Shown here piece after piece: positions 120 to 29,620 of a DNA stretch of 29,620 nt. The notes under the pieces were generated by a model that saw only the letters and a list, made by a program, of their open reading frames with translations, was not told the DNA's origin and searched no databases. This DNA is from a virus, in IMG/VR virus record IMGVR_UViG_3300020185_000187, positions 1 through 29,620 of that record; one strand, written 5' to 3'. The position numbers were made by a program, and so were the translations under genes. Numbering within the stretch: the first letter of the stretch is position 1; the number at the start of each line of letters is the position of its first letter.

Positions 120-210
120 TGGCGGGCAGCCAGGGATTCGAACCCTGGGAACGCTATTAACGTTCGTCCGCTTAGTAGGCGGGTGCTTTAAACCACTCAG
201 CCAACTGCCC
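120..210 (-). tRNA. tRNA-Ser with ACU anticodon, CCA encoded
   Basis: This is a class II cloverleaf. The acceptor GGGCAGT pairs with GCTGCCC (one G-U), followed by discriminator G and an encoded CCA at 120-122. The T-arm is CAGGG-TTCGAAT-CCCTG and the variable arm is long. The anticodon loop CTACTAA gives anticodon ACU (AGU serine codon). The anticodon stem has one C-A mismatch at its outer pair. Bacterial tRNA-Ser for AGY codons normally has GCU, so A34 is unusual. The 5' end overlaps the last codons of the upstream HNH gene. Confidence 0.85.
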
Positions 211-601
211 GTAAACCGTCCCAACCTCCAAGTATTGCATGTTCTTCTGCATGACAGTTTGCACATAACAATGCGCACTTATCTACTTCTTCTAAAAAGA
301 CCTGTAAGTTTTTAGATCTTCTAAACGCTTTTGGGTCCTTCTTAGTCGGGTCTTTGTGATGAAACTGTAATGCTCCTGTGTAGTTGTTATATCCACACTT
401 TTCGCAACAGCCACCTTTATGTTTAATCGCTTGCAACCTAACATCTTTTTGTGTTTGGTGCGTTAATTTAATGTGACAACTTTTACACCGGATCTTCTGA
501 CCACCATAAAAGTTGTCTGGATTAGTTTCGTTACAAGTCTTACACAAGTATGGCTTTACCACACCTTTCTTACCTGAACTGCCTATGCCTTCTAAGTTCA
601 T
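197..601 (-). CDS. HNH endonuclease, probably a free-standing homing enzyme
   Basis: This 134-residue protein carries two zinc-binding parts. The N-terminal half has CKTC (20-23) and CKSC (39-42). The HNH core has CEKC (66-69), then FHHKDP (HH at 81-82) and CANCHAEEH (113-121), the arrangement of zinc-bound HNH nucleases. GGAGAG precedes the ATG at good spacing. The gene sits inside the tRNA array. Its stop codon and last codons lie in the 5' end of tRNA-Ser, and a diverged copy of that tRNA 5' end lies just upstream at 642-670. Free-standing homing endonucleases in T4-like tRNA clusters are known (T4 SegB, a GIY-YIG enzyme), so a homing role is the natural inference. A weak late-promoter-like GCTAAATA lies upstream. 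The cleavage target is unknown. Confidence 0.85.
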   Translation of the reverse strand: MNLEGIGSSGKKGVVKPYLCKTCNETNPDNFYGGQKIRCKSCHIKLTHQTQKDVRLQAIKHKGGCCEKCGYNNYTGALQFHHKDPTKKDPKAFRRSKNLQVFLEEVDKCALLCANCHAEEHAILGGWDGLRAVG

Positions 602-5879: not shown

Positions 5880-5908
5880 AATATATAATACATGCGTTAG
5901 TTTGTCAA
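5880..5908 (-). promoter_or_regulatory. Sigma70-type promoter of gene 32, TTGACA-N17-TATATT
   Basis: TTGACA (5903-5908) overlaps the TGA stop of the upstream gene. TATATT lies at 5880-5885, exactly 17 nt away. The predicted start near 5873 gives a leader of about 85 nt. Confidence 0.85.
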
Positions 5909-7269
5909 CTAAAAAGTTTATTAATATCATAAGATTCGAATACTTTATTGATATCCGCTTCCCATTGATCACTTTCTGCATGTACTGGTGTCTCATTGTG
6001 TGTTGGCTGTAGCCTAGGCATCAGCGAAGCAAGTGCTTTTGCTGATTTACCCAGTATAGCATCGTCGTTGATGCTGTCAACCAATTTACTTGCTTCTGCA
6101 AGACAATTTGACATTGTGCTTTCGCTCTCATCAAGAACGTTAGCAATATACTCCATCACTGCGCCTAATTGGGCTCGTGCTGAAGAATTCTCAAATGTGT
6201 GGTTCATTGGATTTTCAGGATCGCCGACAATGTCAGTTCCTTCTTTAACCCAAACTGTTTTACCACTATTTTCAACAACACTTACAAGGTTGTTGATTGT
6301 TTCTGCTACTTTTGTATTGTGTTCACGTACTGCTTGCATTTCTTTTACAAGTGACTGAACATAAGGTAGTGCGCCTTCTACATTTTCATCAAAGTGATGT
6401 ACTGTAAATTTTGTTTTGATATCATCTAGTCCATTTTCGTCCAGTTGCTCATCGCTGGCTTCAAATGCTTCAATCATTGATGAATAGGTTCTTGCGCCCT
6501 TCATACGGTTAAGTGTTTCACGTATACTGTTAATACGTCCAATAACTGCTTCTACAATATCTGCTGTATCTTCGTTAACAAGTCCATTCTTTTCACTATA
6601 ACGTCTAAACTCTTTAAGTTTCTTTAATTCTGAACATTGTTCTGCGATATGTTTGCCGAAGTCATCCATTGGATTACCACCAGCTTGTACGTGACGTAGC
6701 ATAGCTCTGCCGCCTGCTAAGTTGTTACTTGGAAACTTGTAACGTTCACCTTCGCTGTTTTCAATATAGATGGCTTGAATGTTTCTACTACGTGATCCAC
6801 GTTGTTCTTCATTCACTGCTTTGTTATGTTTAATAACAAGTCTAGCACTTTCTAATTTTTGGTAGCTACTTTTGCTACTCCCGTATGCGGCTCCGATGCC
6901 TTCATTTACTTTATCTTGATTCATGTCTTTTACCTTTTGAGCTTGGTAGTCGAAATCTTTTGGTTCAATTGACTTGGTGAAATTCTTTAGTGTGTATTCA
7001 ATAATACTACGGTTGGCCAAAGTTTTAATCTGTCCTAGCGTTTCTTTTATTGATTGATGATCTACATTTGATCCTAAACTTACTTTTATATTACGAGTAT
7101 TTTCAGTTTCATCTAAACTAATCATAGTTCCAGTGTCTATCATAAAAAATCGTCTAGCTTCTGCAGGGTCTACTGTATCAGCACCCTCATCAGTATACAA
7201 TTTTAAATCGTGACCGTTGCCTTTGAGTATTTTAAACATCTTTTCTGCAACTAATTCTGAACTCAACAT
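5905..7269 (-). CDS. Conserved late protein of unknown function, 454 residues
   Basis: I recognise this as the kind of long, helical, soluble protein found near gp17 in marine T4-like phages, but I cannot name it. It has no membrane segment, signal peptide or clear catalytic motif. Residues 75-200 are charged and basic in part (GSRSRNIQ). The rest is rich in long amphipathic helices, and the C-terminus reads ADINKVFESYDINKLFS. A perfect TATAAATA late element overlapping the gp17 stop drives it, so a virion or assembly role is likely. AAAGAG precedes the ATG closely. The gene 32 promoter starts at its stop codon. Confidence 0.8.
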   Translation of the reverse strand: MLSSELVAEKMFKILKGNGHDLKLYTDEGADTVDPAEARRFFMIDTGTMISLDETENTRNIKVSLGSNVDHQSIKETLGQIKTLANRSIIEYTLKNFTKSIEPKDFDYQAQKVKDMNQDKVNEGIGAAYGSSKSSYQKLESARLVIKHNKAVNEEQRGSRSRNIQAIYIENSEGERYKFPSNNLAGGRAMLRHVQAGGNPMDDFGKHIAEQCSELKKLKEFRRYSEKNGLVNEDTADIVEAVIGRINSIRETLNRMKGARTYSSMIEAFEASDEQLDENGLDDIKTKFTVHHFDENVEGALPYVQSLVKEMQAVREHNTKVAETINNLVSVVENSGKTVWVKEGTDIVGDPENPMNHTFENSSARAQLGAVMEYIANVLDESESTMSNCLAEASKLVDSINDDAILGKSAKALASLMPRLQPTHNETPVHAESDQWEADINKVFESYDINKLFS

Positions 7270-7293: not shown

Positions 7294-7301
7294 TATTTAT
7301 A
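7294..7301 (-). promoter_or_regulatory. T4-type late promoter element TATAAATA
   Basis: A perfect TATAAATA overlaps the TAA stop of gp17. It leaves a leader of about 20 nt with AAAGAG before the 454-residue gene. Confidence 0.85.
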
Positions 7302-8853
7302 CCAAAAACGTAAATGGCATAGGTGCTAAATCTTCTTCATCACTAAAACTATCTTTAAGCTCGTTATATGTAACTTCATCATACTGTGCTACTTGTTGTG
7401 CGACTCTAACCACCAGCAATGCTGACATTACTAAGTCATCAGTTTCGCCTTCTTTTGCGCTGTAACTAGCACCACGAGCAACAAATGTTTTTGTTTCACG
7501 TAGTAGTGTACTACTGGCTATTTCCATTTTATCAGTTTCAATCCAGTTTTTAAATTTACTACATGCTGCTAACTTACTTTTGTTTGTAGTAGTAAACCCT
7601 TTTCTATAACCTCTGCTTGATCCAGCACGTCTAGGTTCAGATATAAATGTGCCAGGTAAGTTTTCCTCACCCATTTCATTAATAACAACTAGTGCCGCTT
7701 CTCCTAGTGTATTGTTTTCTACACTCCAATATATTTCAGATTCAGGTGCTCCTGATTGTATTTCAGTAAGCATTCCACGTAATATTCTTATTTGCTCTTG
7801 TATAGGAGTTTTATTGTGCATCCACTCTCCTACTTGTCGCATACCAGGAAGCTCGTATATTTGTATTGCGCTGTTGTCGCCACCTGTACCCAAACTTGGA
7901 TCCAATCCAGCAATATAAGTTTTTCCATTTTGGAATGGCCTATACCAACGTACTTGTCCAGTTTTCTTGAGTACATCTTTAGTTTCCATTAACGATAACT
8001 TTACACTGTCAATAAGTGTTTCATCAAAGGCAATGAATTCATTTAGGTGTTCACGACGGAATCGCTCCTCACCAATTTTACCTGTTTCTTCATCTGCCCA
8101 TTTTTGGTCACGGTCTGGATGATGTTTCCAATCAGCACTGTATGCTTTAAACCCATTTTTACCAGTTTCTTTTTCATTACCATATGCGTCAGTTGTCTTT
8201 AGTGCTTCTCGCCAAATACGAGCAAATTGGTCATCGTCTTGGTTTGGTGTACTTGTAATAATACATTTACCACCTGTACTAAGTGTTGGTGACAATGCTG
8301 TCCAGAATTCACGAGCAATAGTAGGTCTTACAAACGCAAACTCGTCTAAGTACGCTAACGATATACTTAAACCACGTCCAGTATTGTCTGTAGTTGCTTG
8401 AGCAATAATACGGCTACCATTGTCAAACTCTAGTGATCCTTTATTATATGCTGTAACACCAGCACGTATAAAGTTTGGTAAAAGTTCGTAAGCAAAACGT
8501 ATACGCTGCATAATCTCTTGTGCGCCACTATACTTGTGCGCCGCAATTAGAATAGTTTGGTCTGGAATAAACATACTATACCACAGCAAGTATGCGCCCG
8601 CCGCAGTTGATTTACCCATCTGTCTACTAATAAGAGCAATACTGTATCTGTGATTGTGATACGAATTTAATAGTTCTCTTTGGTAATCAAACAACTCAAA
8701 TTTAAGTCTACCCTTGGTAGGGTGTTGAATCCAAACATATTCAGTTATAAAGTACTGCGGATCCATAGCACATTTAGCAAGTTCTTGTAACTCATGCGTT
8801 GTGTATTTTTCTTTTGTGTACGGGGTTTTAGTTAATTTTGTATCTACTGACAT
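7297..8853 (-). CDS. 17: gp17, large terminase subunit
   Basis: Gp17 is the ATP-driven DNA packaging motor and headful nuclease, acting at the portal of the prohead. The 518-residue protein shows Walker A SRQMGKST (76-83), Walker B LAYLDEFAF (166-174, with the catalytic Glu), coupling motif TSTP (200-203), and an RNase H-type nuclease domain starting with GLDPSLGTGGD (first catalytic Asp near 318) and ending around KEGETDDLVMSALL. Size and order match T4 gp17. The ATG has no Shine-Dalgarno sequence and sits 5 nt after a late element (CATAAGTA). A terminator separates it from the upstream block. Confidence 0.97.
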   Translation of the reverse strand: MSVDTKLTKTPYTKEKYTTHELQELAKCAMDPQYFITEYVWIQHPTKGRLKFELFDYQRELLNSYHNHRYSIALISRQMGKSTAAGAYLLWYSMFIPDQTILIAAHKYSGAQEIMQRIRFAYELLPNFIRAGVTAYNKGSLEFDNGSRIIAQATTDNTGRGLSISLAYLDEFAFVRPTIAREFWTALSPTLSTGGKCIITSTPNQDDDQFARIWREALKTTDAYGNEKETGKNGFKAYSADWKHHPDRDQKWADEETGKIGEERFRREHLNEFIAFDETLIDSVKLSLMETKDVLKKTGQVRWYRPFQNGKTYIAGLDPSLGTGGDNSAIQIYELPGMRQVGEWMHNKTPIQEQIRILRGMLTEIQSGAPESEIYWSVENNTLGEAALVVINEMGEENLPGTFISEPRRAGSSRGYRKGFTTTNKSKLAACSKFKNWIETDKMEIASSTLLRETKTFVARGASYSAKEGETDDLVMSALLVVRVAQQVAQYDEVTYNELKDSFSDEEDLAPMPFTFLV

Positions 8854-8948: not shown

Positions 8949-9755
8949 TTATATACCCGCTAGTTTGCGCAAGTAATCTAATTCTTCGTGTGCGTGTGTA
9001 TGCGCATCATTATTGCATTCACATCCTGTTTCTGGTTGGCCAATTGTACATCCACAATCTTCACATGTTGCTGTTGCTTCTTCGCCTAAGCCTTCGCCCA
9101 TTCTTGACAACGCATCTTGAATAACATCTGCGTCTAAGGCAGTTAATAGTTCGTGCATTACTTTTTCAATACCATGTTGTTCGATCATATCGTATACTGG
9201 TTTTGTATAATAGCCGCCTGCTTCGTTAGTTTTAGCTCTAGCGTTAGCTCTTTCTTCAGCAGCACATTCATCACATGTATCAATTTCACCATCAGTTTCG
9301 TCTTTCATGTATTCACAATCTGAACAACCTTTGGTTTCTTCTCCTAATTCATCTCTACCCCATACAAACTTACCATCTGCGCCAGGTTTCATACGCTTAA
9401 TAATCTCCGCATTTTTACCTAGTCCATCATTTTTACGATCATCTGCTTTTTTTTGATAAAATGGATTATCTGCATGTGTATATGAACTATCGCCTGATAC
9501 TTTACGTACTGCGTCTTGTGGCATTGAAGCATTGCTTTTACCTACTTTAATAGCGTTTGCTGTACTTGCTACTGCATTGTAACGATCTTGATAGTTTTCT
9601 ACATATACTTCTACCATGTCATCGCCATTACGTAGTCCGCCTTTTTTAACTTTTACGTTTTCTTTGCCGTATTCTTTCATAGCTTTTGCTGGAGACATTG
9701 ATGTTTGTTTCCAACTCTTTTCGCCTTCTTTTAAATATTCAGTAAATGTTTTCAT
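8949..9755 (-). CDS. Putative internal head protein with capsid-targeting-like N-terminus and zinc-ribbon motifs (268 residues)
   Basis: The function is unknown. The N-terminus MKTFTEYLKE-GEKSW closely resembles the T4 capsid-targeting sequence of internal proteins (MKTYQEFIAE, recalled from T4), with Glu at position 10 and LKE-G fitting the prohead protease rule of hydrophobic-x-Glu before a small residue. Two cysteine clusters, CSDC/CDEC (about 143-163) and CEDCGC/CEC (about 229-245), could bind zinc. The C-terminus is YLRKLAGI, shared in form with the next two upstream products. The composition is acidic. It starts on the stop of the 225-residue gene (TAATG) and is last before the terminator. 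Confidence 0.75.
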   Translation of the reverse strand: MKTFTEYLKEGEKSWKQTSMSPAKAMKEYGKENVKVKKGGLRNGDDMVEVYVENYQDRYNAVASTANAIKVGKSNASMPQDAVRKVSGDSSYTHADNPFYQKKADDRKNDGLGKNAEIIKRMKPGADGKFVWGRDELGEETKGCSDCEYMKDETDGEIDTCDECAAEERANARAKTNEAGGYYTKPVYDMIEQHGIEKVMHELLTALDADVIQDALSRMGEGLGEEATATCEDCGCTIGQPETGCECNNDAHTHAHEELDYLRKLAGI

Positions 9756-10432
9756 TATTCTAGTCCTGCTAATTTTTTCATATATTCAATAGCTTCACCA
9801 AATCCACTATCACGACCAATACGACTATCTAAGTCACGTGCTACTTGATCTCTAACATCTGTATCGCCTGCTTCAGCAAAATTATCGTTATCATCTGCTA
9901 AGTTCATTAAGTCTGACATAGCGGCATCAATAGCACGCTCTGGACTATCAAATTCACCTGCTTCGTGTCTTTTAACAATATCGTCTACAACTTCAGCAAC
10001 TTCAGCATTGCCTTCGTCACTAAACATACCGTATTCACGGTTGCTATCATACTCGCCACGTGATGGGTTGTAGTCTGGTGCGCCTGCTTCTTGTACGTCT
10101 TCGTTCATGCTTTTCCACATTTCGTCACATTCTTCTTTGCTAACGCCTTGTGCCATATACTCTTGACAAAAATCATCATGGTCCATGTTTTCAGCATCGT
10201 CCATCATTTTGTCTTTCATGCCGCCTTCATTTATTGACTCTTCCATGGTTGCTTCTGTATGTGCTTCACGCATTGCTCCCATTAATTCTTCAAAAGCAGA
10301 TCTTACATCTCCTAAATCACAATCATCGCCACAAGCTGCTTCTAGCTTGCCGCCATCACGGAATACACTATTAAGTTCTTTTAGTTTATCCATTGCTCCA
10401 TTAAATGTATTATCTATTTTTGAATGTGCCAT
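9755..10432 (-). CDS. Acidic protein, possible prohead core component (225 residues)
   Basis: No family is recognised. The protein is strongly acidic and helical, with Met/Asp/Glu-rich stretches (KDKMMDDAENMDHDDF), a composition seen in scaffolding and core proteins. It ends in EAIEYMKKLAGLE, the same C-terminal motif type as the flanking proteins. The ATG follows the upstream stop by one base, with GCAGG as the ribosome site inside the upstream gene. A core role is inferred from composition and from its place between gp16 and gp17. Confidence 0.7.
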   Translation of the reverse strand: MAHSKIDNTFNGAMDKLKELNSVFRDGGKLEAACGDDCDLGDVRSAFEELMGAMREAHTEATMEESINEGGMKDKMMDDAENMDHDDFCQEYMAQGVSKEECDEMWKSMNEDVQEAGAPDYNPSRGEYDSNREYGMFSDEGNAEVAEVVDDIVKRHEAGEFDSPERAIDAAMSDLMNLADDNDNFAEAGDTDVRDQVARDLDSRIGRDSGFGEAIEYMKKLAGLE

Positions 10433-10433
10433 A

Positions 10434-11054
10434 TTAAATACCTGCGTTTCTTCTAAGTACTGCTAGTTCACTGTCTATGCTATCTGATAGTTTGTGTGCT
10501 GTATCTTTTTTCATTGTAGTTTTATGTGTCTTACCACCAAACTCAAAACTGTCTTTACCAGATCTTGATGCTGCAGCAGCCGCTTGATTAAAAGCATTTT
10601 CGTCAATATCATCTTCTTCAACTTTTGCTTCGTCTACTTTATCATCGTCGTCTTTTTCCCATGGTGCTTTTTTAAGAGATACTTTTTTTCTTTTCTCGCC
10701 ACGCTCTGGTTCGTCTGCTTTATCAAAAGCACGTCTTATTGCTTTCTCATCTTCAGCACTACCTTCTTTAAATGATGCATATGCTTCACTTACACTTTCT
10801 ACAGTGTGGTCTGGATACACAGTTTCATCTACACTAACATGATCGCCTTTTGCTTTCAAGTAACGGCGTAAACTTGTATCTACATCACTACCCATTGATT
10901 GCATTGGGTCGTCCATCATTTGTTCATCTGGGGCTGTTGTTGCTTGCTCGAATCCTGCGCCCTCTGCTTCTTCAACTTCTGCTGTTGTTTCAATTCTGTT
11001 AAGAAGTTCTGGGTTTACAATTCCTGCTAATTTTACTAAGTCTCTTAAATCCAT
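10434..11054 (-). CDS. Acidic/charged protein with two KLAGI-type motifs (206 residues)
   Basis: Function unknown. The N-terminus MDLRDLVKLAGIVNPELL and the C-terminus SELAVLRRNAGI both carry the (L)xKLAGI-like motif of the neighbouring proteins. The middle is low-complexity and charged (WEKDDDDKVDEAKVEEDD). Near the end, AFNQAAAAASRSGKDSFEF followed by GGKTHKTTMKKDTAHKL looks like a compact domain that I recall from other phage proteins without a known role. AAGG and a TATAAAAA stretch precede the ATG. A prohead core or internal protein role is inferred. Confidence 0.7.
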   Translation of the reverse strand: MDLRDLVKLAGIVNPELLNRIETTAEVEEAEGAGFEQATTAPDEQMMDDPMQSMGSDVDTSLRRYLKAKGDHVSVDETVYPDHTVESVSEAYASFKEGSAEDEKAIRRAFDKADEPERGEKRKKVSLKKAPWEKDDDDKVDEAKVEEDDIDENAFNQAAAAASRSGKDSFEFGGKTHKTTMKKDTAHKLSDSIDSELAVLRRNAGI

Positions 11055-11058
11055 TTTT

Positions 11059-11559
11059 TTATACCTTATATTCTTTATTTAATTCTGATTTAGGTAAGTT
11101 CTTAACAAAGTTTGAAACAAATTCATTTCCAAAGTTGTCTTTATGTTCTACTTTTTCAGCTTCGCTATAATCAGCATCTGCTAATACACTTTTGCTTTCA
11201 TCATCAGTAGCGTTCTCTAAATCCTCTTCTTCGTCGATAAACTCACCTTCATTATATACTCTAATTGCTCCAATACTAATACCAGTTGACGCCGCAACTT
11301 CTTCTTGCATTACATTTGGAGTACATGGTAGGTGTGTTACGATTTCCAAAGTAGACACTGCGCTCGGGCCAATGTCACCAAACCCGGCTGGGCTTCTTTG
11401 AATAATACTAGTCTTAGGTGCGCTTACGCTCTCTACATTGTATCTTGCTAAGTGCTTCTCTAATTTATCTAGTTGATCATCTGACATTTCAGCCACAGTA
11501 CGTAGTCTGAAGTTGTATGTTTTCTCAGATTCTGCCAAATATTGCTTTAAACTTTTCAT
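11059..11559 (-). CDS. Putative internal head protein with capsid-targeting-like N-terminus (166 residues)
   Basis: The N-terminus MKSLKQYLAE-SEKTY parallels the 268-residue protein (MKTFTEYLKE-GEKSW) and the T4 capsid-targeting sequence. Glu is again at position 10 after Leu-x. Residues 15-110 look like a folded domain of mixed alpha/beta type; the segment after about 107 is acidic (FIDEEEDLENATDDE). If cleaved after Glu10, the mature protein of 156 residues could be carried inside the head and delivered with the DNA. AGGA precedes the ATG. This role is inference from the N-terminus and from the location between gp16 and gp17. Confidence 0.7.
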   Translation of the reverse strand: MKSLKQYLAESEKTYNFRLRTVAEMSDDQLDKLEKHLARYNVESVSAPKTSIIQRSPAGFGDIGPSAVSTLEIVTHLPCTPNVMQEEVAASTGISIGAIRVYNEGEFIDEEEDLENATDDESKSVLADADYSEAEKVEHKDNFGNEFVSNFVKNLPKSELNKEYKV

Positions 11560-11579: not shown

Positions 11580-12107
11580 TTATTTATCACCGTTCTTAGA
11601 TTCTGCCACTTTTGCCATAATGTCGTTAATAAGGCTAGAACGGTCAAATTCTTCAGCAGCTCCTTCAATAGGACCGCCATCAATCGGGGTGTCATTGAGC
11701 TTGGCAATTTGCATTTCAACTTTCTTTTCTTCTAAATCAAGTTTACGTTTGCGCATTTGCATCTCAATCATCTTTAATTTTTTGTCCATCTTTGCTGTTT
11801 TAGCTGTAATGGCATTTGTCATCATTTTACTTGCGCTATCAAACACTGGAGCAGCATGTCTGTCTTCTACGTTTTGTCCAAGATCCATAAGATCTTTAAA
11901 CGCATCCATTGCTTGTTGAGCATACTCATCCATGTCTTTATCAAGTGACTCTAAATCACGCACTGCTGGTAATGCTTGGTCAATTTTATCAGCAGTGTCT
12001 AATGCTTGTTGCATTGATTCTAAATCAAACCCAGTTTCTTCTGCTGTAGTTTGTGCTGGCGTTTCTGGACTAGCCATGTTAAAAACTTCTTCAATTTTTT
12101 TACTCAT
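11580..12107 (-). CDS. 16: Probable gp16, small terminase subunit
   Basis: The small terminase recognises phage DNA and stimulates the gp17 motor. The 175-residue size is close to T4 gp16 (164). The central region (about 90-140) is a long basic helix, SASKMMTNAITAKTAKMDKK followed by LKMIEMQMRKRKLDLEEKK, which fits the coiled-coil oligomerisation core of small terminases. The N-terminus is acidic and the C-terminus short. The start overlaps the stop of gp4 by 4 nt. In T4, 16 abuts 17; here four other genes and a terminator lie between. A different helical scaffold-type protein remains possible. Confidence 0.6.
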   Translation of the reverse strand: MSKKIEEVFNMASPETPAQTTAEETGFDLESMQQALDTADKIDQALPAVRDLESLDKDMDEYAQQAMDAFKDLMDLGQNVEDRHAAPVFDSASKMMTNAITAKTAKMDKKLKMIEMQMRKRKLDLEEKKVEMQIAKLNDTPIDGGPIEGAAEEFDRSSLINDIMAKVAESKNGDK

Positions 12108-12553
12108 TTTTTTCTCTTCTTTGTTTTCTTAGGATTATTAAAAAGTTCATTCTCAGTTAGCACTCTAAATCCTACGCCTTGTTTTGAAGCAAATAACTTT
12201 GCGGCTTGCCATTTAGCTTCGTTTACTACTGCGGCGGCTTTTTGAGCTGGACTTCTAGCATTGCCAAGTATTTGTCCAGCAGGCTTAATTTCTATAAACT
12301 CAGCATGTCTTTTTTTGTTTACATCTTCATACACTATAAAAAAGTCTGGCACATACATTGTTTGCTTATTTTTAACTGGATGAAAATATGGTATGCGATG
12401 ACTTTCACTTGCCCAGGCTACTACACTAGGATGTGTATCACAAAATCTCATAAATTTTAATTCCCATCCACTACGATATCTCGGTGAATGTTTACCAATA
12501 TACCTAGATAAATTTCTAGGTGTGAATATTCCTTGTTGAAACTTAGATGCCAT
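12104..12553 (-). CDS. 4: gp4, head completion protein (PD-(D/E)xK-like fold)
   Basis: T4 gp4 (also called gp50) acts late in head completion and prepares the packaged head for tail joining. The 149-residue protein has the features of this family and of TnsA-type nuclease folds: YRSGWELKFMRFCD (26-39, with Glu31), VAWASESHRIPY, YVPDFFIVYED (67-77, Asp70) and AEFIEIKP (84-91, Glu88 and Lys90). The basic tail is KKTKKRKK. The late element CATAAATA lies 8 nt before the ATG and no Shine-Dalgarno sequence is seen. Confidence 0.88.
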   Translation of the reverse strand: MASKFQQGIFTPRNLSRYIGKHSPRYRSGWELKFMRFCDTHPSVVAWASESHRIPYFHPVKNKQTMYVPDFFIVYEDVNKKRHAEFIEIKPAGQILGNARSPAQKAAAVVNEAKWQAAKLFASKQGVGFRVLTENELFNNPKKTKKRKK

Positions 12554-17722: not shown

Positions 17723-18877
17723 CTATTTGAAGGCTTTTAGTAAAATAGTATCTTCATTAATCCTACCGTTCATTTTAATATCAGTAGTTTTCAGATATCC
17801 GAACTGTGTTTTAAGTTTATGATGTGTTACCTTTTTCCACTGTGGCAATATTTCACTTGGCTTACGTACTGTTTTTTGTCGGCTTGTCTTCTCATCAAAG
17901 AACTGAAGTGTAGTACCTTTAACTTGTAGTGTAGCTTCGTGTTGCGCATAGTAGATACCAAGTTTACGTGTTTTAGTATTAAACACAACTAGCGCACTAG
18001 CACCAATGATGTCTTGTGGAGGAATACTGCTAATACCGTAGTCTGGATCACTTGGCTTAAACTTCATCTTCTTAACTAAATCAACAGCACTTTTTTGTTT
18101 AGGCTTACGCACAGCTCTTGTTTGTTTCTTCTCAGCACGTAAAATGTCAAGTGCTTGAAAGATACGTTGGTAAAAACCATGTAGCTCTTTCTTTTCTTTT
18201 GTACTCAAGTGATTAAAACCTTCAGCAAGTTGCTGTTGCATATCGTCTTGTTTTTTAGGAGCAGGCAAGTTAATAAGTTCTTCTAGCTCTTGATACGCAC
18301 CTTCATAAAACTGCTGAATAAATCGAGCATGTCCTAGATTAACTTCTAACTTGCGGAATAGTTGTAGAGGTTGCTTGTCTTTAAGTGGATTCTTTTTAGG
18401 ATCACGAAGCCAATCATCTGCCCATTGATCAATCTCTTCCATTTTATCAATGGTTGCTTCTTGAAGTCTTTCCTGAATTGTAGGAACATACTTTACTTTT
18501 TTTGTAGTTAATTCAATCTTTTTAAGCTCAACAATCTGACGTCCTTCTTCTGCTAGACTCTTGATCCACGCATCTAGTTTACCTACATAATCAGGATGAA
18601 TTTTATCTGGAGCATTTTCTTCAATAAATGCGGCTGTTGCCCAATGGCTTTTACCACCAACTTTGTGGTCTGGTAACTTATTAATAGCTACTTGTACTTC
18701 TTTATCGTAGTTTTTCTTAATATAGTTCTTAACTTGATTTAACCACTCTTTTGACTCCATCATATAATGAATATGATATTGTGCTGTATGCCAATCCTTT
18801 GTAGGAACCATATCCCAAGCGCCTTTGCGTCTTGTAGCACGTACTGTTTTTTTCTTACGAGTTGATGTTTTAGCCAT
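17723..18877 (-). CDS. Basic protein of unknown function, 384 residues
   Basis: I do not recognise a family. The protein is lysine-rich, with a basic N-terminus (AKTSTRKKKTVRATRRKG), helical middle segments and a more folded C-terminal part (about 285-384: DIIGASALVVFNTKTRKLGIYYAQHEATL...). The first part around residues 25-80 (WHTAQYHIHYMMESKEW) could be a small globular domain. The composition suits nucleic-acid binding, but this is inference. The start at 18877 is chosen for AGGAG before the ATG. A strong sigma70-type promoter drives it, so it is probably early, although it lies between the neck genes 13 and 14. Confidence 0.8.
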   Translation of the reverse strand: MAKTSTRKKKTVRATRRKGAWDMVPTKDWHTAQYHIHYMMESKEWLNQVKNYIKKNYDKEVQVAINKLPDHKVGGKSHWATAAFIEENAPDKIHPDYVGKLDAWIKSLAEEGRQIVELKKIELTTKKVKYVPTIQERLQEATIDKMEEIDQWADDWLRDPKKNPLKDKQPLQLFRKLEVNLGHARFIQQFYEGAYQELEELINLPAPKKQDDMQQQLAEGFNHLSTKEKKELHGFYQRIFQALDILRAEKKQTRAVRKPKQKSAVDLVKKMKFKPSDPDYGISSIPPQDIIGASALVVFNTKTRKLGIYYAQHEATLQVKGTTLQFFDEKTSRQKTVRKPSEILPQWKKVTHHKLKTQFGYLKTTDIKMNGRINEDTILLKAFK

Positions 18878-18912
18878 GTTATTCTCCTGAACTATATTGC
18901 CGTTACTTATAA

Positions 18913-22610: not shown

Positions 22611-24359
22611 ATGGAATTGTTCCAAGTAACACTAAAGCATGGCGAAGACATTAATGCTTTCTATGAGGATATGGAAACACCAGGTGGTGCTCTAACTATT
22701 CCAGATCGTAAAGTAGAGTGTGCCGCAAGACGCCCAACTTCAAGAACCACAGGCTATATGCTTACTATGGAAGAAGCAATGGAAGTAGCTGATGACGACA
22801 GAGTTGAACAAGTTATACCACAAAGTGTTTTAGATAGAAACATAGATAAACCAGCAAGTACTTTCACAGGCAGGTTTGACAAAGGTGTTCCAAGCGGTTC
22901 AGCGCCGTTTACAAAAGCAAATGGTCAAACAGGAATGAAGTATACTGTTGATCACAAAAATTGGGGCATACTAAGACACAGTGAAGGCGCAAACAGAACC
23001 AATTGGGGATCAAATGCTTCATTATCAGATAGATATGTTGATGACAGTGTAACATATTCAGCAAGTGGTAAAAATGTAGACATTGTTATTGTTGAAATAA
23101 AAACATTAAGCGACCACGCAGACTATTCAAGTAGAGTAGTGGACTACAACTGGGGTCAACACTACAACACAATCACAGGTGGTACTAACTATACATACAG
23201 CAACGCAGACGCTCGTGACAACTATGGCGCAGAAGACAAACATCCCACAGCAGTCACAAGTTATGCGGCAGGCACACTATACGGACTTGCCAATGATGCA
23301 AACATATACATGTTTGACAAGACTTACGAAAAATCAAAGTCAGGCGGCAGTAGTGATGATAGAACTTATGCCTACATCAGAGAGTTTCACGCAAACAAAA
23401 GTATAAATCCAGCAACAGGTAGAAAAAATCCTACTATTGTTAATATTAGTTTGGGAACACAGACCCTAGTAGGCGGCGGGGCCGCTTTAATTCACTTCCA
23501 GGGTGTAACTACAGACAACGGCACAGGCAATGATCTATTAGCCGCAGAACTAAATGCAAGAGGTATATATGCAAGTGATCCTGAGTGGACAGACAATCAA
23601 CAATTTAGTGTAAATTCGCAAGTCCTACTAAGTGATATGCAAGATGCTATAACAGATGGAATTATTATTGTAGCATCGGCAGGCAACGAAAACAGATACA
23701 CTGATGTGTCAGATGGCGACAACTACGATAACTATATTGTTAGTGAGGGGGCATATTTCTTTAAAGATTACTACTTTGGCGGTAATTATCCATTTAGATA
23801 TTACTATCATCGTGGCTCCACTTATACGTTCAATGGTGCTATTTGTGTAGGTGCGTTAGGAGTTAACACAAATCAAGGCAAAGCAGGTTTCAGCAGTTGG
23901 GGACCAGGTGTCGATGTATATGCCGCAGGAGTTGGTTGTTTTGGCGCAGGAGAAAGTAGCAATATTATGTTTGGTGTTCCGTATCCAGGACAAGAAGCAA
24001 ATACATCAAACTGGGACACAGTACAGTCTGGATCAGGAACAAGTTATAGTGCGCCGTTCGTAACAGGTATGTTAGCTTGTTTAGCAGAAATATATCCTAA
24101 CCTTACACACGCACAAGCAAGAACATATTTACACGACAATGCTGTAACAGGATTAATGGTAGACACAGCAGACGCAATAGATGTAGACACAGACACAAGA
24201 ACAAGCATAGACGGTAGCAGCATTGATAGAATAGCATTGTGGAAGAATCACAGAGCCACATCAGGCAATATGGCGTTCAACACATATAACAAAGATGTTA
24301 ACAATAAGCCTACAACTGGTGCTATCTATCCTCGTACAAGAATACGCAAGCGTGGGTAA
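22611..24359 (+). CDS. Subtilisin-like (S8) serine protease or pseudoprotease in the virion gene block
   Basis: The 582-residue protein has the S8 fold landmarks: the strand VDIVIVEIKT (156-165) where subtilases have VIDTG, the His motif DKHPTAVTSYAAG (209-221, His211), the oxyanion Asn in IIVASAGNEN (351-361, Asn359) and the Ser motif GSGTSYSAPFV (474-484, Ser478). The expected catalytic Asp is Glu162. There is no signal peptide; an N-terminal domain of about 150 residues precedes the catalytic part. GGAGG lies before the ATG, and the start is 2 nt after the fibre stop. The location among fibre and neck genes suggests a virion-associated or assembly protease. No target is visible. Confidence 0.88.
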   Translation: MELFQVTLKHGEDINAFYEDMETPGGALTIPDRKVECAARRPTSRTTGYMLTMEEAMEVADDDRVEQVIPQSVLDRNIDKPASTFTGRFDKGVPSGSAPFTKANGQTGMKYTVDHKNWGILRHSEGANRTNWGSNASLSDRYVDDSVTYSASGKNVDIVIVEIKTLSDHADYSSRVVDYNWGQHYNTITGGTNYTYSNADARDNYGAEDKHPTAVTSYAAGTLYGLANDANIYMFDKTYEKSKSGGSSDDRTYAYIREFHANKSINPATGRKNPTIVNISLGTQTLVGGGAALIHFQGVTTDNGTGNDLLAAELNARGIYASDPEWTDNQQFSVNSQVLLSDMQDAITDGIIIVASAGNENRYTDVSDGDNYDNYIVSEGAYFFKDYYFGGNYPFRYYYHRGSTYTFNGAICVGALGVNTNQGKAGFSSWGPGVDVYAAGVGCFGAGESSNIMFGVPYPGQEANTSNWDTVQSGSGTSYSAPFVTGMLACLAEIYPNLTHAQARTYLHDNAVTGLMVDTADAIDVDTDTRTSIDGSSIDRIALWKNHRATSGNMAFNTYNKDVNNKPTTGAIYPRTRIRKRG

Positions 24360-28525: not shown

Positions 28526-29620
28526 TTATCGACTCATTAAATCCTTGACAAGTTTTTTTAGTTCGTCAATTTCTGTTTGCTGTTCTTTTACTGCTTCAAT
28601 AAGCAATGCTGTTAGTTTTTCATACTGTACAGTTTTATAATCAGTACCTTTTTCAGTATTAATAGCTGCTTCTTTAACTATTTCAGGAAGTACTGCCTCA
28701 ACTTCTTGTGCGCTAACACCAACTTGTGTACTATCATTATTGTATCCCAAATCTTTTGCTAGTTGATTTTCTGTAAAGTAATATCCATTTAGTTGTTTTA
28801 CTTTATCCATAGCGTTTGGAATAGTACCATGGAAGTCTTTAAGTCTTTCATCTGAGTAATACGCTACCACATCACCAGCTGATCTTATTGTGCCACCAAA
28901 GTAACTTGTTACAGCATCAGCAATATAAACACCGTAAGCAGTTGTAGGCAGTACACCTGCGTAGTTACCGTAGTACAAGTATGTAGTATTTGTTTGCGCT
29001 ACAGTATCGTTATTGTCGTATTGTGCTTGGAAGACATGTGAAGTACCGTAATGATCGCCTGTGCCGGCTGCTATTTCTATTTCACCGTAAACAGCACTTG
29101 CCGTAGTAACGTTGCCTGTATCTGCTATGTTAGTTGTTTTAAAGTATCCACCAATTAACGTATTAGTATCAGAAGTTGCGTTGTCGCTTTGTGCTAAGCC
29201 TTGAACTCCAAACACACTACTAACAGCGCCAGCACCACCGTTATCTTCTGCTTTAAAGTAACCACCTGTAACCTGAGAGGTTTGGCCTGTGCTTGGTGTA
29301 ACTGTCGCATCAGCAAAAACGCCGTAAACCATATCAGCATCACCTGTGGAATCTACATCTAAGTAGGCTCCGTAGACTCTGTGTTCGTGATTAGTACCAC
29401 CGCCTGTCGCTGTACTATTAAGGTCTATCCAAATGCCACCTTGCTCACGGTCTGCTGTAGTAACAGTTGCGCCTGAAAGGGTTGAAACGATTTCTTGAGC
29501 AAAGTAGAAGTCTTGCTCAGGGTTCGTTTGGTTTACAAGAAGACGAAGACCACCGTTGGCGTTGTTGTCTGTATCAATGGTTAGCGGACCAGTCATAGTA
29601 CCGCCAGCTTTAGGTAAAGC
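28526..29620 (-). CDS. Tail fibre with C-terminal S74 chaperone domain (partial, 5' end outside window)
   Basis: The C-terminal part is a peptidase S74 intramolecular chaperone: YYSDERLKDFHGTIPNA, VKQLNGYYFTENQLAKDLGY, VGVSAQEVEAVLPEIVKEA and a closing coiled coil (LLIEAVKEQQTEIDELKKLV). Such domains trimerise the fibre and cut themselves off; the catalytic Ser is in SDER. The upstream part is a Gly/Thr-rich beta fibre with repeated GGYFK and VYG segments. The frame is open to the window edge and reads LPKAGGTMTGPLTID, a common internal motif of phage fibres, so the ATG at 29596 is internal and the gene continues to the right. Confidence 0.9.
   Translation of the reverse strand, partial: ALPKAGGTMTGPLTIDTDNNANGGLRLLVNQTNPEQDFYFAQEIVSTLSGATVTTADREQGGIWIDLNSTATGGGTNHEHRVYGAYLDVDSTGDADMVYGVFADATVTPSTGQTSQVTGGYFKAEDNGGAGAVSSVFGVQGLAQSDNATSDTNTLIGGYFKTTNIADTGNVTTASAVYGEIEIAAGTGDHYGTSHVFQAQYDNNDTVAQTNTTYLYYGNYAGVLPTTAYGVYIADAVTSYFGGTIRSAGDVVAYYSDERLKDFHGTIPNAMDKVKQLNGYYFTENQLAKDLGYNNDSTQVGVSAQEVEAVLPEIVKEAAINTEKGTDYKTVQYEKLTALLIEAVKEQQTEIDELKKLVKDLMSR

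Follow-up and report, generated by a model that had tools for sequence, protein, structure and literature searches.

Candidate prohead-core proteins with T4-type leaders and gp22-type tails in a fragment of a marine jumbo myovirus

A locus of four genes on the minus strand of a 29.6-kb virus fragment (the whole stretch analyzed, 29,620 nucleotides, is called here the window) probably encodes prohead-core proteins, docked by an N-terminal leader, a C-terminal tail, or both, and trimmed by a gp21-type protease. The reading is built on the leader, its conservation, the co-occurrence with gp21 in relatives, a shared tail, the enrichment of cleavage-type sites, and the exchange of modules, all of which are observed; docking, cleavage, packaging of the 268-aa protein, and any ejection are steps that we infer.

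RESULTS AND DISCUSSION

Gene order and phage group

The window, which has a T4-type gene set on its minus strand, comes from a marine jumbo myovirus of the Rak2/Atu_ph07 type; among annotated phages, the jumbo phages Atu_ph07 and Phosso are closest to it. The minus-strand genes encode UvsY, UvsX, a gp32-like protein, a virion protein (PHROG 13484), gp17, the 268-, 225-, 206-, and 166-aa proteins, a 175-aa coiled protein, gp4, two tail-tube proteins, the tail sheath, and a neck protein (UvsX, gp32, gp17, the tubes, and the sheath being named from sequence and gene order). The order tail sheath, tail tubes, gp4, coiled protein, and 166-aa homologue occurs also in CBB, RaK2, 121Q, GAP32, and Vibrio phage 2.275.O. 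The 166- and 268-aa genes, which are the subject of the earlier note on this DNA, are not neighbors but are separated by the 206- and 225-aa genes, members of the same set (Table 1).

Table 1. Positions of the locus, its leaders, and its flanking genes in the window
Feature	Position	Strand	Basis or remark
Conserved 166-aa head protein with a predicted ferredoxin-like domain; virion structural family PHROG 14802	11059..11559	-	Profile match; virion mass spectrometry of homologues CBB_210 and phAPEC6 gp270
First ten residues of the 166-aa protein (MKSLKQYLAE), a leader resembling a capsid-targeting sequence; cut predicted behind Glu10	11530..11559	-	T4 code (PMC9026906)
206-aa acidic protein, LAG-type motif at both ends (MDLRDLVKLAGI ... 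LRRNAGI), 4 [LIVMF]xE-[AGS] sites	10434..11054	-	
225-aa very acidic protein (pI 4.1), C-terminal YMKKLAGLE tail, 6 [LIVMF]xE-[AGS] sites, AGAPDYNP module after VQE	9755..10432	-	
268-aa modular protein: leader MKTFTEYLKE-G, swappable modules including Zn-ribbon, C-terminal YLRKLAGI tail	8949..9755	-	
First ten residues of the 268-aa protein (MKTFTEYLKE), a leader resembling a capsid-targeting sequence	9726..9755	-	
Coiled protein of 175 aa, encoded between gp4 and the 166-aa protein at the place of CBB_209/121Q_556; in the conserved gene order	11580..12107	-	
gp4-type head completion protein, synteny anchor	12104..12553	-	PHROG 218, E 1.2e-38
Large terminase of the gp17 type; anchors the synteny and bounds the variable interval downstream	7297..8853	-	Neighborhood alike in Atu_ph07 and Phosso

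A T4-type leader on two proteins of the locus

Both open reading frames reported in the earlier note are present on the minus strand, with the starts MKSLKQYLAE-S (166 aa) and MKTFTEYLKE-G (268 aa) as claimed. These starts had been likened to those of all three T4 internal proteins. The match is real for ipII and ipIII, since both start with MKTYQEFIAEA, but not for ipI, which starts with MKTFKEFTST, without LxE at residue 10; in T4 IPI, an ITE-A is found at residue 19. The likeness to ipII and ipIII lies at M1, K2, a hydrophobic or aromatic residue at 4, an aromatic residue (or Y/F) at 7, I/L8, and E10, and the T4-type pattern proposed earlier is thus present. In the T4 leader, residues 4 and 7 direct targeting and residues 8 and 10 direct processing, as mapped by mutations; with Asp at position 10, processing is blocked but targeting is not (PMC9026906).

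Positions 2, 4, 7, 8, and 10 of the 166- and 268-aa products conform to the T4 capsid-targeting code. Written as MKx[FLYIM]xx[FYW][LIVM]xE, the code is matched by 8 of the 2,451 ORFs in six related IMG/VR contigs and the complete genomes of Atu_ph07 and Phosso (0.04 expected from residue shuffles), and all eight are orthologues of the 166- or 268-aa genes. The hydrophobic residues 4 and 7 of the leader would dock the two proteins onto the scaffold core, and L8-x-E10 would be cut by a gp21-type prohead protease, giving mature proteins that start with SEKTY and GEKSW. A literature search on targeting sequences in marine phages found nothing relevant.

M1, K2, L8, and E10 are four of the ten residues that do not vary among 20 marine homologues of the 166-aa protein, which share as little as 27% identity with it. 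The earlier note had taken homologues whose first ten residues are not conserved as a refutation of its reading, and some distant homologues are of this kind. E10 is replaced by S in Phosso and by D in RaK2, Kaldavass, and XbC2, and it is gone in two of seven jumbo contigs; in the other five, [LI]xE followed by S or A is found at the same place. Cleavage would therefore not be essential across the family, and, by the T4 rule, the forms with D10 would be targeted and not cut. The hydrophobic pattern of the leader is mostly kept in the distant homologues without E10. The specific code match and the invariance of L8 and E10 in the 20 marine homologues support, at the level of sequence, a targeting leader of the T4 type in which a cleavage site is probable.

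At the leader codons, synonymous divergence is low, so that the conservation of the leader is partly at the DNA level. As a measure of codon-level selection, pN/pS in the leader is not below that in the rest (0.24 vs. 0.16), because synonymous change is also low there.

The 166-aa protein as a conserved head gene

The 166-aa protein falls into PHROG 14802, whose annotation is virion structural protein (E 1.9e-8, with residues 1-152 aligned to 1-153 of 179); in Rak2-like jumbo phages, this head gene is conserved and present as a single copy. Its gene follows gp4, the syntenic place of the PHROG 14802 homologues. With the Atu_ph07 homologue as query, tblastn reached 46 phage records, nearly all Rak2-like (RaK2, 121Q, and CBB among them). 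That the protein belongs to the head, as had been proposed, agrees with literature data from two phages, in which homologues were detected in virions by mass spectrometry: CBB_210 in CBB (13 unique peptides, 60.5% coverage; PMC5259590) and gp270 in phAPEC6 (4 peptides, 41.1% coverage; PMC7247149). After maturation, the 166-aa protein would be retained in the virion, where it is perhaps a component of the inner body that the Rak2-like group has. The annotated starts of the homologues are too late, by 29 codons in Atu_ph07 (record positions 85062-85148) and by 37 codons in phAPEC6 gp270 (6001-6111 of the stretch examined), and the leader is therefore hidden from proteomic searches. With the start corrected, the Atu_ph07 homologue begins with MKTLQDYLTE-SKKCY; the sequence from residue 11 onward is LTPEYSYR in CBB_210 and KKPVYEYR in the corrected ORF of 121Q_557 and phAPEC6 gp270.

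In the AlphaFold model of the 166-aa protein, the leader forms a helix, and the domain behind it has the topology beta-alpha-beta-beta-alpha-beta, with a block pLDDT of about 71-85 there. With this model, a fold search of the PDB returned generic ferredoxin-like matches only (ribosomal S6, PII, HPPK), none below E 0.001. A search of BFVD returned homologues and a match to Ip7 of the T4-like phage MX01 (E 1.1e-3, TM about 0.3) that is too weak to be used. A likeness to sortase in a profile search of PDB sequences (E 0.1-0.8 over 30 residues) is attributed to chance.

The gp21 protease in relatives

The gp21 protease (PF03420) is present in Atu_ph07 and Phosso and is annotated in CBB. All seven jumbo contigs returned by a search for gp21 relatives (290-608 kb) carry exactly one 166-aa homologue. 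On the window contig, gp21, gp22, and gp23 were not found (gp21 and gp23 by Pfam model), and neither gp21 nor gp23 was found by Pfam model on six larger related contigs; the marine contigs are without the head cluster. The protease of the window's own phage is, therefore, one that we infer. In the gp21 homologues, LTE or LRE occurs at residues 5-7 of the N-terminus, like the LIE-9 site of T4, which is consistent with self-trimming.

A tail shared with gp22 and the protease-type sites

The 206-, 225-, and 268-aa proteins end in an [LN]AG[IL] tail. The same tail is found on 62 of 63 complete gp22 scaffolds adjoining gp21 (six more gp22 matches, cut by contig ends, are left out of this count). 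In its wider form, [LIVM]xx[LN][AS]G[ILVM], the motif occurs in 43 of 50 representative proteins from the interval between the 166-aa gene and gp17, C-terminally in 35; eight of 991 ORFs in six contigs end in it, seven of them from the interval. With hhalign against gp22, only the tails of the 206- and 268-aa proteins align (E 0.014), and no alignment to the gp22 body is obtained outside the tail. No published mention of the C-terminal motif of gp22 was found. The tail probably docks the 206-, 225-, and 268-aa products to the same partner as gp22.

Complete gp22s of marine and jumbo T4-type phages nearly all end in [LN]AG[IL] plus 0-6 residues.

Sites of the prohead-protease type, [LIVMF]xE-[AGS] (the hyphen marks the cut), number 12 in the 206-, 225-, and 268-aa set vs. 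3.8 expected, with no excess in off-register controls. The ratio is 1.1-fold in 740 control ORFs (691 vs. 627 expected) and 4- to 5-fold in gp22s (14-17 vs. about 3 expected). T4 gp22 is cut by gp21 and, as a positive control, has 10 sites vs. 3.0 expected. Such sites are so numerous in the 206- and 225-aa proteins that the protease would probably cut these two products into pieces. In the 268-aa protein alone, two sites vs. 1.2 expected are present, which is not significantly raised.

Two other virion-type proteins of the window may be prohead-protease substrates: the product of 5905-7269 (minus strand), with seven [LIVMF]xE-[AGS] sites vs. 2.5 expected, and that of 17723-18880 (minus strand), with four vs. 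0.9 expected. The Phosso homologue of the former ends in RLRKLAGI.

Module exchange in the hypervariable interval

The interval between the 166-aa gene and gp17, which holds the 268-aa gene, is hypervariable. A conserved leader followed by a diverged remainder, as expected in the earlier note, is seen for the 268-aa gene but not for the 166-aa gene, which is conserved throughout. In the 268-aa orthologues, the leader is kept and the next module differs right after Glu10, with six modules observed (junctions E-GEKSW, E-GTKGC, E-AYSPG, E-AGAPD, E-NEEVT, and E-GDQSD). The leader-bearing second protein is absent from some related contigs. The AGAPDYNP module follows the leader in two related loci (L017 and L019), and it occurs inside the 225-aa protein of the window. 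The Zn-ribbon module TKGCSDCEYMKDETDGEIDTCDECAAEER is found in several different protein contexts; the zinc-ribbon motif pointed out earlier in the 268-aa protein is present, but as a module that moves and not as a permanent component.

Of 209 module starts, 115 are no more than three residues away from an [LIVM]xE site (47 +/- 6 at random positions), as are 79 of 200 module ends (41 +/- 6 at random positions); these 409 unique contexts are related to each other, so that the significance is overstated. At the E-A/G junctions, P3 is mostly hydrophobic, with T and Q also occurring at several. The 268-aa protein is one of a modular set, with modules exchanged at or near cleavage-type sites. One copy of a module is present per genome, and no intragenomic copies were found. 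For the 268-aa protein, the AlphaFold model (pLDDT 44) is not interpretable, and an identity as HNH endonuclease, from a PHROG match on a Cys-rich stretch (E 0.002), was rejected, Pfam giving no support.

While moving between proteins, the modules keep 80%-100% identity, which suggests selection on the modules. This near-identity favors a selected function and speaks against a reading that we consider possible but doubtful, namely that the 206-, 225-, and 268-aa proteins are disposable scaffold fillers, functional analogues of T4 gp22, gp67, and gp68, diced and mostly expelled before packaging, their variability reflecting relaxed constraint. Several observations agree with such fillers: the acidic composition (all four proteins of the locus have pI values of 4.1-4.9), the multiple hxE-A/G/S sites of the 206- and 225-aa proteins at gp22-like density, the gp22 tail on all three, the same site excess in T4 gp22, and the cutting of T4 core proteins into multiple fragments. 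Composition and site density favor core-type proteins for the 206- and 225-aa products. On the other hand, CBB_213, CBB_214, and gp267 and gp268 of phAPEC6, which are matched to these proteins by syntenic place only, are present in mature virions.

Beyond docking and trimming of core proteins, we suggest tentatively, and as a rather improbable extension, that the locus is a head-loading cassette. Cargo with a leader and/or a gp22-type tail would consist of exchangeable small modules joined at prohead-protease sites, which recombination would swap and the protease would free for storage or delivery.

It is unlikely that the proteins are injected counter-defense effectors like T4 IPI*, packaged through the leader, trimmed, ejected with the DNA, and acting on host restriction or other defenses. 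The leader is of the T4 IP type, the interval is hypervariable with swapped modules, as an arms race predicts, and Zn-ribbon-like Cys clusters occur among the modules. But across jumbo phages there is a single, conserved copy of the 166-aa gene, the composition of all four proteins is acidic, and the modules of the 225- and 268-aa proteins have no match in isolate phages. PADLOC gave no match for the four proteins, and NCBIfam and Pfam gave no model above cut-off; there is no sequence evidence for a counter-defense role. For these reasons, the earlier suggestion that both leader-bearing proteins are fast-diversifying and defense-countering is not retained.

Finally, the leader might be a mere N-terminal amphipathic helix of a structural protein, with an incidental LxE that is never cleaved and, in the 268-aa protein, an N-terminus borrowed by recombination, as the loss of E10 in several homologues and the conservation of the leader codons at the DNA level could indicate; this is improbable given the invariance of E10 in 20/20 marine homologues, the [LI]xE of five of the seven further jumbo contigs, the presence of exactly the residues important in T4 on two different proteins of one locus, and the exchange of modules directly after E10 in the 268-aa orthologues.

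Comparison with known systems

The 166- and 268-aa proteins share with T4 IPI, IPII, and IPIII a ten-residue leader (K2, a hydrophobic or aromatic residue at 4, an aromatic residue at 7, I/L8, and E10) followed by a small residue, and, in the 268-aa orthologues, a conserved leader with different remainders. However, they are acidic whereas the T4 proteins are basic (without residues 1-10, the pI is 4.5 and 4.9 for the 166- and 268-aa proteins vs. 9.0 and 9.6 for IPI* and IPII*), and no sequence similarity was found in the mature part; for these two reasons they are not filed as members of IPI-III. In addition, the 166-aa protein is conserved across jumbo phages, and the 268-aa protein has a second, C-terminal signal, the gp22-type tail.

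The PHROG 14802 family (CBB_210, GAP32_204, 121Q_557, phAPEC6 gp270, and RaK2 gp047) has a homologous full-length domain, the same gene order, and a leader MxxLxxxLT[E/D]. The Rak2-like leaders differ in having I, and not an aromatic residue, at position 7, and D10 in some cases. The annotations of the family mention neither a leader nor a link to T4 targeting sequences. In Rak2-like jumbo phages, the family becomes a named candidate for an inner-body or internal protein whose mature N-terminus can be predicted, and the T4 capsid-targeting code would extend beyond the close relatives of T4 to jumbo phages.

With the T4-type gp22 scaffold, the common features are the [LN]AG[IL] tail (in marine and jumbo gp22s), acidity, and dense prohead-protease sites; the differences are the lack of likeness outside the tail and the absence of the tail from T4 gp22 itself. 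A C-terminal motif common to gp22 scaffolds and neighboring proteins could help in the search for further core proteins. Should the modules be delivered, new head-delivered effectors of uncultured marine phages might be sought in the interval that separates gp17 from the 166-aa gene.

In phiKZ and SPN3US, the propeptides of inner-body and ejection proteins are cleaved after Glu (S/A-x-E) by the prohead protease (PMC9026906). These, too, are head proteins of jumbo phages with propeptides cut after Glu, but the cleavage motif is different. An inner body is present in phAPEC6 and 121Q, and the phAPEC6 proteins have no match to the phiKZ inner-body proteins (PMC7247149).

Other features of the window

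Three further ORFs are characterized by their sequence. The product of 22611-24359 (plus strand, 582 aa) looks like a subtilisin-type protease and lies among tail or fiber genes. At the low end of the window, 197-601 (minus strand) is a Cys-rich, HNH-like ORF of 134 aa. At the other end, the ORF at 28526-29620 (minus strand), open at the window end, has a fiber-like C-terminus that resembles an S74-type intramolecular chaperone (SDERLKD ... EVLPEIV).
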